From Candidatus Zixiibacteriota bacterium (lineage in GTDB: Bacteria; Zixibacteria; MSB-5A5; GN15; JACZUZ01), in assembly GCA_024280775.1 (NCBI GenBank), contig JAJRPM010000008.1:62001-126000 (forward strand): a stretch of 64,000 bases of DNA. Reading direction: 5' to 3'. The notes under the pieces are model-generated. The model was not told the DNA's origin. It saw only the letters and a program-made list of their open reading frames with translations, and searched no databases. Shown here piece after piece: positions 10,315-62,959 of the stretch. How positions within the stretch are numbered: position 1 is the first letter of the stretch; the number at the start of each line of letters is the position of its first letter. Made by a program: the position numbers and the translations under genes.

Positions 10315-10448
10315 TGACAACAAGTGAGACGCTAGATTTCGACAATTGATTTCAAAGTGTCAAGCTACAATCACGCAATGAATCTGAATAAGAAAGAAAA
10401 CAGACTCATTGGTTTCGGAGATCAAAACTAACAGAGGAGGAGCCAGTC

Positions 10449-10961
10449 ATGGCTGCCAAACGTAAGACCGCAAAGAAGAAAACCACGCGACGCAAGACAG
10501 CGGCGCGCAAACCTGCCGCGCGCAAAAAAACAGCAAGAAAGCCAGTCCGTAAGACTGTCAAGCGCGCAGCAAAAAAAGTAGCGAAGAAGAAGACTGCGCG
10601 TAAGAGCGCAACGGCTCCACGCGCTCGCAGAACCAAAGCGGGTGTGAAGGTCAAAGAGTGGACAGCTGCTGAGATTTCATCGCTGAAGAAAATGTACAAA
10701 GGCCTGACCAATGTACAGATTGCGCGGAAATTGAAACGCACCTCAGGTTCAATTCGCGCTAAAGCCGCGATTCTGGGTCTGAGAAAAGCCGCCACCAAAA
10801 AGGTCGCCAAGAAAAAAGCGACTGGTCGCAAAAAAGTAGCTGCTCGTAAGACAGTCCGTCGCAAGACTACTGCCAAGCGTACAGTGAAACGTCGCACTGC
10901 GCCGAAACGCAAAACCGCGAAGCGCAAGACAACTAAACGTAAAACTACACGTCGTCGCTAG
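10449..10961 (+). CDS. Histone H1-like basic protein with Myb/SANT-like core
   Basis: The 170-residue, extremely Lys/Arg-rich protein has an N-terminal tail (1-65) and C-terminal tail (113-170) of Ala/Lys/Arg/Thr repeats like eukaryotic H1 or bacterial AlgP/Hc1 tails. Between them is a compact core (about 66-112) with pattern W71, AEIS, L79, Y83, TN, IARKL, RT, SIRAKA and LGL. That pattern reads as a three-helix Myb/SANT-type DNA-binding unit. It presumably coats or bridges DNA as a nucleoid protein. A paralogue with the same core lies at 55903-56346, and both end in KRKTTRRR. GGAGGAG precedes the ATG and a strong terminator follows, so it is monocistronic. Composition is firm; the role is inferred. 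Confidence 0.85.
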   Translation: MAAKRKTAKKKTTRRKTAARKPAARKKTARKPVRKTVKRAAKKVAKKKTARKSATAPRARRTKAGVKVKEWTAAEISSLKKMYKGLTNVQIARKLKRTSGSIRAKAAILGLRKAATKKVAKKKATGRKKVAARKTVRRKTTAKRTVKRRTAPKRKTAKRKTTKRKTTRRR

Positions 10962-11030
10962 AGCTAGTCTCTGCGAGATGTGATCTGAGTTTGCGCTCAG
11001 GTCCTGTACATACAGTTTAGTACAAAAGAA

Positions 11031-11061
11031 AGCCGGACAGTCAAACTGTCCGGCTTTTTTA
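11031..11061 (+). terminator. Terminator after first H1-like gene
   Basis: An 11-bp perfect stem (AGCCGGACAGT with ACTGTCCGGCT) around a CAA loop is followed by a run of T. On the minus strand it is preceded by an A-run, so it may also stop the facing lipoprotein gene. Confidence 0.93.
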
Positions 11062-55830: not shown

Positions 55831-55866
55831 AAAAAAGCCCGACAGTCTCGCTGTCGGGCTTTTCTC
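55831..55866. terminator. Two-way terminator between M48 protease and second H1-like gene
   Basis: The AGCCCGACAGTCTCGCTGTC then GGGCT hairpin is identical to that at 54000. A-runs and T-runs on either side let it serve both convergent genes. Confidence 0.92.
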
Positions 55867-55902: not shown

Positions 55903-56346
55903 TTAGCGACGACGGGTGGTCTTACGCTTCATGGTGGTCTTGCGCTTCATCGGTGAAGTGCGACGAGCTGAGCTACGACGAGCAACAGTCTTGCGTGAGC
56001 TGGCCTTACGGACCGGGCTCTTGCGGGTTTTCATTCCACCGTTACCGGCAGTCTTGGCGACCATTGACAAGAAGTTTTTGTTCTTCTTGAGGCTCAATGA
56101 ACCGGCTTTCGCACGGACAGAAGCGACGGTGCGACCAAGTGACTTGGCGATTCTGGTGTTAGTCGTGTTCTTGTAGTTCTTGCGAAGCATGCTGATTTCG
56201 CTGGCTGACCAAACTTTAACGCGAACTGTGGCGCCGCGCTTGGTGGCGCTACGACGTGTGGTTGCGCGCGGTGTGGCGGTGCGACGTGCTGCATTGCGCT
56301 TGGCGGCTACTGATTTACGACCTCTGGTTGTTTTACGAAAAGCCAT
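55903..56346 (-). CDS. Histone H1-like basic protein, second paralogue
   Basis: The 147-residue Arg/Ser/Thr-rich protein is related to the one at 10449-10961. Its core (about 41-87) reads VRVKVWSASEISMLRKNYKN, then TTNTRIAKSLGRTVASVRAK and AGSLSLKK, aligning with W, EIS, L-K-x-Y-K, TN, IA, RT, RAKA and L of the first. The tails differ: this one is richer in Arg/Ser, the other in Lys. Both end in KRKTTxKRKTTRRR-type sequence. GAAAGGAG precedes the ATG. It is monocistronic with a 490-bp upstream region. It presumably binds DNA non-specifically, with the two paralogues perhaps used at different growth stages. Confidence 0.84.
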   Translation of the reverse strand: MAFRKTTRGRKSVAAKRNAARRTATPRATTRRSATKRGATVRVKVWSASEISMLRKNYKNTTNTRIAKSLGRTVASVRAKAGSLSLKKNKNFLSMVAKTAGNGGMKTRKSPVRKASSRKTVARRSSARRTSPMKRKTTMKRKTTRRR

Positions 56347-59874: not shown

Positions 59875-62763
59875 CTATAACGCCAACGCAAACTTCTCCG
59901 CTCGTCTTTTCTTGCCGGCTCCATTCTCCGCGTGTGTCTTGAGAATATCGCGTAAGAAGGCGCCTGTGTAGCTTCCTCGGGTATTGGCTACTTCTTCGGG
60001 TGTGCCACTCGCTACTATTCGGCCGCCCTCGTCTCCGCCCTCGGGGCCCAAGTCCAGCACATAGTCCGCGGTTTTTACCACATCGAGATTGTGCTCTATC
60101 ACCACTACTGTGTTGCCCCGCTCCACCAACTCATGCAGGACATTTAGCAACAAGCGAATGTCTTCAAAATGTAAGCCGGTGGTTGGTTCATCAAGGATAT
60201 ACATTGTGCGGCCAGTTGAAGTCTTCGATAGCTCAGTTGAGAGTTTTATTCGTTGCGCCTCACCGCCGGAGAGCGTTGTCGCTTGCTGGCCGAGATGAAT
60301 ATATCCCAAACCAACAGCCTTAAGAGTCATCAGCTTCTTCTTAATCCGCGGCACATTGATGAAGAACAACAGAGCCTCATCAACTGTCATATCCAACACA
60401 TCGGCAATTGATTTGCCTTTGTACAGAACATCCAATGTCTCACGATTGAAGCGCTTGCCTTTGCAAACTTCACAAGGGATATAAACATCAGGCAGGAAAT
60501 GCATTTCTATCTTGATGATTCCATCACCCTGACAGGCCTCACAGCGCCCGCCTTTGACATTGAACGAGAATCTCCCGGGCTTATAGCCGCGCACTTTTGA
60601 TTCCATCAAAGTAGAGAACAAGTCACGAACAAAAGTGAAAACACCGGTATAGGTAGCAGGGTTAGAACGCGGCGTGCGTCCAATTGGTGACTGGTCTATA
60701 TCAATCACTTTATCGATATGTTCAGTTCCGGTTATTTGTTCATAGGGAAGCGCGGCTTTCAGTGATGAATAGAATTGTCGCGCCAGGATGCGATAGAGTG
60801 TTTCGTTTATCAAGGTAGACTTGCCGGAACCGGAAACTCCGGTAACTGCTACGAAACATCCCAAAGGAATTTCAGCGCGAACACTATGGAGGTTGTTGCC
60901 GGTAGCGCCTGTCAGCCTGATTTTCTCTCCACTTCCCTTGCGGCGCACAGTCGGAACTGGAATTTGTTTCTTGCCGGAAAGGTATTGTCCGGTGACAGAT
61001 TTACGTGAACGCATTATTTGCGCGGGAGTTCCCTCAGCGACAATGTGGCCGCCGTGAATCCCGGCGCCCGGACCGAGGTCCAACACATGATCCGCGGCGC
61101 GGATTGTCTCTGCGTCATGCTCAACTACTATCACGGTATTCCCCAAATCACGTAACTGCAATAAGGTTTGTAACAATCTCTGATTGTCACGTTGATGCAA
61201 ACCAATCGATGGTTCATCGAGCACATATAAAACGCCGACAAGTCGTGAACCGATTTGCGTCGCCAGTCGAATCCGCTGGGCCTCACCGCCAGAGAGTGTT
61301 GCAGTTCCGCGCTCTAGTGTCAGATAGTCCAGGCCTACGTCATTGAGGAATGACAGGCGCTCACGAATCTCTTTGAGAATCTGTTTGGCGATTGTGGTTT
61401 GGCGTTTGTTCAACTTGATACCCTTGAAGAACGCATCTGCATTCCTGATTGACATACTGGTAATGTCACGGATGTTTTTCTTATCAACCAAAACCGCCAG
61501 CGCTTCGGGTTTTAGTCGCGCTCCCTCGCACTCCGGGCAAGGCATTATAGTCATAAAGCGCTCCAGCCAGGTGCGGACAAAGGAGCTGTCGGTTTGTTTG
61601 TGGCGGCGACTCAAATGCGGAATCACACCCTCGAAAACTGCCGTGTATGAGCCGGAGCCATTGCCTTTGGAGCGGACATATTTGAAGCGCATCTCTTCAT
61701 CGCCTGAGCCATAGAGAATTACTTTTTGGATTTTCTTGGGAAGTTTATCAAATGCTTTGGAGAGTTTGAACCCATAGTGATCGGCGACTCCCAGCAAGAG
61801 AAACCGATAGTGATTGGCCATATCAGCCCCCCAGGGAGCGATTGCTCCCTCGGTGATAGACAGTGACGGATCAGGTATGATACGACTCTCGTTGAATTCC
61901 ATTTGCGAACCCAACCCCGAACATCCCGGGCAGGCGCCGAATGGCGAATTGAACGAAAACAAGCGCGGTGTGGCCTCTTCATAGCTAATGCCACAATGCA
62001 AACAAGCAAAACTCTCGGAAAACAAATGATCGTTGCCGTCGATGTTAATCAAACATGACCCGCCACCGGTGGTGAGAGCTGTTTCAATTGAATCGGCAAG
62101 ACGACGTTTGACTTTGTCTTTGACAACCAGTCTGTCGACCACCGCTTCGATTGTGTGCTTCTTTTTCTTGTTGAGTTTGATGTCGTTGATTTCTTCCAGC
62201 GAAACAATATCGCCGTTGATACGAAACCGCACAAACCCGTCAGTGAGCGCCTCTTCGAGAATATCCTTATGCTCACCTTTTTTGCCGACAATCAACGGCG
62301 CCAGCACAATCATTCGTGACCCTTCAGGAAACGCCAGCGCCGCATCGACAATCTGTTGAACAGTCTGACGACTAACTAATTTGCCACACTTTACACAATG
62401 TGGAACTCCAATGCGCGCAAAGAGCAACCGCAAATAATCATAAACCTCGGTCATAGTTCCAACAGTAGAGCGAGGATTCTTAGAGGCGCCTTTTTGTTCA
62501 ATTGAAATCGCCGGGGAGAGTCCTTCGATGAAATCCACATCCGGCTTTTCCATCAGCCCCAAAAACTGCCTCGCATAGGCCGAGAGAGATTCGACATAGC
62601 GCCGTTGTCCTTCGGCGTAGATTGTATCGAACGCCAGCGATGATTTGCCGGAGCCGGAGAGTCCGGTGATGACCGTGAATTTGTTACGCGGGATTTCTAC
62701 ATCAAGGTTCGCAAGGTTGTGTTCCCTCGCGCCCTTTATCCAAAGTATATCTTTTTGAGCCAA
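59875..62763 (-). CDS. uvrA: Excinuclease ABC subunit A
   Basis: The 962-residue DNA damage sensor of nucleotide excision repair is an ABC-family dimer. It has two Walker A motifs ([10 protein letters not shown] near the N-terminus and [10 protein letters not shown] in the second half), two [26 protein letters not shown] signatures, and zinc fingers including CPGCSGLG and [11 protein letters not shown]...CEVCKG. Length is typical, with a short Lys/Arg-rich tail. The start is a TTG at 62763, 8 bases after AGGT. It is well conserved and not in an operon with uvrB here. Confidence 0.97.
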
Positions 62764-62959
62764 TTCTTGTACCTGGAAATATGTGAATCGTTAGTTTTCT
62801 CTACACTTAGTGTTCTCTACACCTGGTTCCGCTATCACAATTGGATTGCGGCGAACCCATAGTATAGCCCACACTACCCAAACTACCAAGAGATTGACAC
62901 CTGCAAACCCTATCAATTCATCACATTTCAAAAAGCAGCGCTGATGCGAGGCCGGATGC

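Follow-up and report, generated by a model that had tools for sequence, protein, structure and literature searches.

Basic-Tailed Protein Pairs with a Predicted Helix-Turn-Helix Core Are Candidate Architectural Nucleoid Proteins of Zixibacteria

Two genes in a 64,000-nucleotide stretch of DNA (the window; positions 62001–126000 of a contig in a 3.17-Mb Candidatus Zixibacteria genome) encode very basic proteins in which a small core, predicted to fold as a helix-turn-helix, lies between two disordered tails. Judged from sequence, structural models and analogy, these proteins are probably paralogous architectural proteins of the Zixibacteria nucleoid, in which the core would dock on DNA and the tails would bridge it, beside HU.

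Two genes and their shared core

The features of the two genes, with the evidence for each, are as follows.

10449–10961 including the stop, + strand: copy 1, lysine-type H1-like gene, 170 aa (open reading frame; orthologue in genome G001)
10435–10440, + strand: Shine-Dalgarno sequence AGGAGG of copy 1 (sequence)
10449–10643, + strand: N-terminal basic tail of copy 1, residues 1–65, Lys/Arg/Ala/Thr (sequence; no acidic residues)
10644–10787, + strand: folded core of copy 1, residues 66–113, three predicted helices (AlphaFold2; 4e-21 to the family profile)
10788–10958, + strand: C-terminal basic tail of copy 1 (sequence; composition)
11029–11060, + strand: terminator-like hairpin and T run downstream of copy 1 (sequence; the scan puts the stem on the − strand)
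55903–56346 including the stop, − strand: copy 2, arginine/serine/threonine-type H1-like gene, 147 aa (open reading frame; orthologue)
56227–56346, − strand: N-terminal basic tail of copy 2, residues 1–40 (AlphaFold2 pLDDT about 50)
56083–56226, − strand: folded core of copy 2, residues 41–88, three predicted helices (AlphaFold2 pLDDT 94–97; dN/dS about 0.09)
56041–56079, − strand: extra predicted helix after the core of copy 2, residues 90–102, NFLSMVAKTAGNG (AlphaFold2; identical in the sister species)
55906–56040, − strand: C-terminal basic tail of copy 2 (AlphaFold2 pLDDT 46–57)
55833–55863, − strand: perfect hairpin AAAAGCCCGACAG-loop-CTGTCGGGCTTTT downstream of copy 2, a probable terminator (read from the sequence; absent from the scan's list)

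The first-pass annotation had proposed two unlinked open reading frames at these positions, and the coordinates, ATG starts and ribosome-binding sites (AGGAGG and AAAGGAG, 6–9 nt upstream) all bear it out, with 45 kb between the genes and opposite orientations. Both proteins have a pI of 12.0, with net charges of about +71 (copy 1) and +46 (copy 2). The tails account for more than half of each protein and hold zero acidic residues, which are essentially absent from the tails of the whole family; the core contains 13 K+R versus 2 D+E.

That two very basic tailed proteins share a common core, as had been proposed, is confirmed by their alignment, which extends over 144 residues with a raw score of 248. 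The best of 2000 composition-preserving shuffles scored 134 and 0 reached 248, so that basic composition does not explain the core they share. This core comprises 46–48 residues, about 51% identical between the copies, with W, EIS, L, K, Y, TN, IA, L, RT, S, R-A-K-A, L, L and K invariant between them; a W, R and K are invariant across 81 distinct cores. Copy 1 is the sole other match to the copy 2 core in the host genome, and the copy 2 orthologue in a sister species is 79% identical. Compared with sister-species orthologues, the cores show dN/dS values of about 0.09 (copy 2) and about 0.10 (copy 1), and purifying selection acts on both.

Predicted fold and relatives of the core

AlphaFold2 placed helices at residues 12–22, 27–34 and 38–48 of the copy 1 core with pLDDT of about 91–92; in full-length copy 2, the core blocks reached 94–97 and the tails about 46–57. 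The alignments used comprised three sequences only (copy 1, copy 2, one orthologue for the copy 1 core), and the confidence therefore does not stem from deep coevolution. Core pLDDT values above 90 and low-confidence tails uphold the proposed arrangement, in which two disordered basic tails flank a folded core of three helices.

Profile searches connected the cores most strongly with PHROG 323 (D5-like; E 1e-8), a match that is strong in the core region only. Phage T5 D5, whose annotation is that of a DNA-binding protein required in replication and late transcription, may have the same domain type but is a protein of 255 aa with another architecture; it matches PHROG 323 over 253 residues, i.e., at full length, whereas the window proteins match strongly over the core only. 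Direct profile comparison of the core with T5 D5 was weak (probability 28%). Among PDB entries, profiles retrieved 2lvs, the DNAJC1 SANT domain and GcrA at E 2e-4 to 3e-3. In structure comparison, models of phage GcrA-like and Myb-like proteins reached query TM scores of about 0.7–0.85, although the shortness of the domain kept their E values at 0.007 or higher; for the same reason, a Foldseek search of the PDB gave no significant match. The N-terminal domain of GcrA shares a W...L...IA..L......V..K...LGL pattern and the helix-turn-helix with the core; unlike GcrA, the Zixibacteria proteins lack its C-terminal region and score far below the curated cutoff of the GcrA Pfam model (PF07750; 13.4 versus 26.9 bits, E 0.04–0.1). 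Pfam Myb/SANT models (PF00249, PF13921) gave no clear match, the best E being 0.027, in 2–3 of 21 members.

Based on these profiles and models, the core is predicted to belong to a known fold class, the homeodomain-like helix-turn-helix of the GcrA and phage T5 D5 type. Of the Myb/SANT-type core suggested at first pass, the three-helix fold stands and the label does not, Myb/SANT being one of several weak matches and GcrA and phage D5-like domains being nearer. A closer kinship with eukaryotic H1 had also been suggested, and it holds for layout: in both, a basic tail stands on either side of a globular DNA-binding domain, and subtype variants occur. It does not extend to homology, none of which was found: the linker histone Pfam model (PF00538) matched neither protein even at E 10, and the modeled core, with three helices, no strands and no beta hairpin, is not the winged helix of H1. 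There are, moreover, no nucleosomes. The HU/IHF Pfam model (PF00216) likewise matched neither protein.

Bacterial H1-like basic proteins are often regarded as mere tails, and the first-pass annotation had set the present pair apart on that ground. This does not hold for all of them: AlgP has a 124-aa helical domain, HupS combines HU with a lysine-rich tail, and the host genome itself encodes a SWIB domain with a lysine tail. The tails of the Zixibacteria proteins are like those of chlamydial Hc1/Hc2 (PF07382) and AlgP in being very basic, disordered, repeat-like Lys/Ala/Pro sequences of variable length, yet the scores of the window pair fall below the cutoffs of the HC2 models (PF07382, 19.7 and 9.6 bits versus 40; NCBIfam NF038052, 10.8 and 10.4 versus 135), and the helix-turn-helix core between two tails distinguishes them from these proteins. 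AlgP, whose tails are similar, is associated with polyphosphate granules (PMC9239181). Actinobacterial HupB/HupS use a folded DNA-binding domain and a lysine-rich tail for nucleoid compaction (PMC11229371), but they have the HU fold and a single C-terminal tail, whereas the Zixibacteria proteins have a helix-turn-helix and two tails, with HU separate.

Other basic-tailed proteins occur in the lineage. The third H1-like protein of the host genome (L137, G000:C1:158300-160800, − strand) joins a lysine-rich N-terminal tail to a SWIB/MDM2 domain (Pfam 2e-28); in Waddlia, a SWIB protein was bound along the entire genome (PMC6426960). A large open reading frame resembling topoisomerase I (L138, G000:C10:81500-84500) matches the HC2 profile and therefore probably carries a lysine-rich tail. 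A 355-aa, R/K/T-rich, tail-only protein scoring above the HC2 cutoff is encoded in a genome of f17, a family without the core (L140, G101). As the lysine-tailed SWIB protein of the host genome shows, this lineage has basic tails as a module on more than one kind of domain associated with DNA.

Distribution, neighborhoods and tail chemistry

A tailed core protein was found in 56 of 60 relatives of the order. Every good-quality genome among them has it (41 of 41), and the four without it are incomplete. Order genomes typically carry one or two copies. The core had no match in two genomes of the same order with completeness above 90% but contamination of 5–6%. Three further families of the class also have the tailed core, and across the phylum strong matches occurred in 61 genomes of families f1–f5, f9 and f10. 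No core match was obtained in families f6–f8, f11–f13 and f16–f18, and f14–f15 gave weak matches only, to a different, tandem helix-turn-helix protein. The proteins in question (L126–L130, from families without the tailed protein) are about 220 aa long, with several tandem helix-turn-helix units that are D5-like (PHROG, 1e-21). In f4 genomes, the same helix-turn-helix domain also stands behind an N-terminal DUF433-type domain (L131, L132).

Beyond the phylum, a broad but thin sample (about 300 of 387 genomes) yielded two weak matches (6e-9), both without basic tails, and further sampling, which covered tiny phyla only, added a third outside genome with a match. Within this sampling, the core is mainly limited to one lineage. 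Plasmid matches to the core fell in other proteins with different annotations.

The genes are chromosomal and lie in housekeeping neighborhoods, not in phage or plasmid DNA. In family f4, the lysine-type gene follows fabF and rnc and precedes a gene for an electron-transfer flavoprotein, and the arginine-type gene diverges from those of an AI-2E-family transporter and an M14 peptidase; in f3, the lysine-type gene sits between uvrA and the enolase gene (eno). A UvrA homologue is also encoded upstream of copy 2 (window positions 59878–62790, − strand), and it is the lysine-type copy that the f3 UvrA gene adjoins. PADLOC found no defence link of the genes. AAGGAG-type sites precede nearly all of the relatives' genes, and a conserved leader, TTAACGACTCAAACAAGGAGTT, stands immediately before the start codon of arginine-type genes across genera (e.g., L050, L042, L072); conservation upstream of these genes may extend beyond the ribosome-binding site.

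The different tail chemistry of the two copies, noted at first pass, proved to be kept across the order. In the window pair, the tail ratio K/(K+R) is 0.60 for copy 1 versus 0.38 for copy 2, and wherever a genome contains both core types, it is higher in the lysine-type copy (16 of 16 genomes; sign test, 3e-5). Because both copies share one genome, G+C content cannot explain a within-genome difference. The conserved split suggests that the copies have differentiated into a lysine/alanine type and an arginine/serine/threonine type. Arginine-type cores in f2 and f4 carry VYS-V/I-RYKA followed by an NPS-x-W motif; f3 has lysine-type cores only, several of them with very short tails (about 10–25 residues). 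A tree of 84 cores over 46 columns, too short to tell a single duplication from repeated ones, sets a large arginine-type clade apart. The window's two copies fall outside that clade, and for them the names lysine-type and arginine-type denote tail chemistry only.

Possible functions and significance

An architectural role on the nucleoid would proceed as follows. The fold and charge of the core suggest that its helix-turn-helix fits into the major groove of DNA and has a low or modest preference for sequence, and the two disordered, acid-free tails would neutralize backbone charge on flanking or neighboring duplexes. By analogy with histone H1 on linker DNA, one molecule would bridge DNA and condense it in addition to HU; because HU is a separate gene present in 59 of the 60 relatives, an H1-like role beside it is possible. 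The lysine- and arginine-type forms might serve different growth states or chromosome regions, as their conserved split hints. Since several f3 members have very short tails, bridging is weakened as a universal mechanism, and polybasic tails bind RNA and polyphosphate too.

A single helix-turn-helix can also give sequence-specific regulation. The core resembles GcrA and phage regulators, and some columns around helix 3 (R30, S34, K38) vary little or not at all; that the proteins are GcrA-like, sequence-specific transcription regulators, with tails that only raise affinity, is nevertheless unlikely, given the distance from the GcrA Pfam cutoff and the extent of the acid-free tails. It is quite unlikely that the proteins organize or tether granules in the manner of AlgP and PhaF, their tails binding DNA and polyphosphate and spacing storage granules along the nucleoid. 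KAAPKRK and KKPA repeats in the lysine-type tails of several relatives do resemble the KPAA tail of AlgP, but arginine-type tails lack that pattern, the core is neither a phasin nor the AlgP helical domain, and zero granule genes were among the identified neighbors. Many small basic proteins act on RNA, and rnc lies directly upstream of the lysine-type gene in eight f4 genomes, so that an RNA-linked role of this copy is possible. Action mainly on RNA, at the ribosome or as an RNA chaperone, seems improbable, however, as the f3 gene has other neighbors (uvrA and eno) and the nearest known relatives of the core are DNA-binding proteins. Descent as remnants of phage or mobile elements is largely refuted: the domain is common among phage proteins, but full-length copy 2 matched none of 50,697 phage records, its core matched no viral contig, and the genes show order-wide retention, conserved neighborhoods and purifying selection.

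Helix-turn-helix domains, basic tails and the joining of a folded domain to a tail are each already known. The families and literature searched contained neither their combination nor the two-tailed layout, the lineage-wide pairing or the conserved split between lysine and arginine, and literature searches found no report on these Zixibacteria proteins. Going further than an architectural role, it may tentatively be proposed that the proteins form an order-wide analogue of linker-histone variants, independent of eukaryotic H1, in which a shared helix-turn-helix core with lysine-type versus protamine-like arginine/serine/threonine tails would set two chromatin states on one chromosome.

More generally, a predicted DNA-binding domain with two tails has been kept across a bacterial order, and within one cell the lysine-rich and arginine-rich forms are kept apart. 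If these proteins act on the nucleoid, the linker-histone layout would have arisen independently here, and the pair would offer a natural experiment on why chromatin uses lysine versus arginine tails. Genes that are conserved but unannotated, in a phylum that is mostly uncultured, would also gain a likely function.
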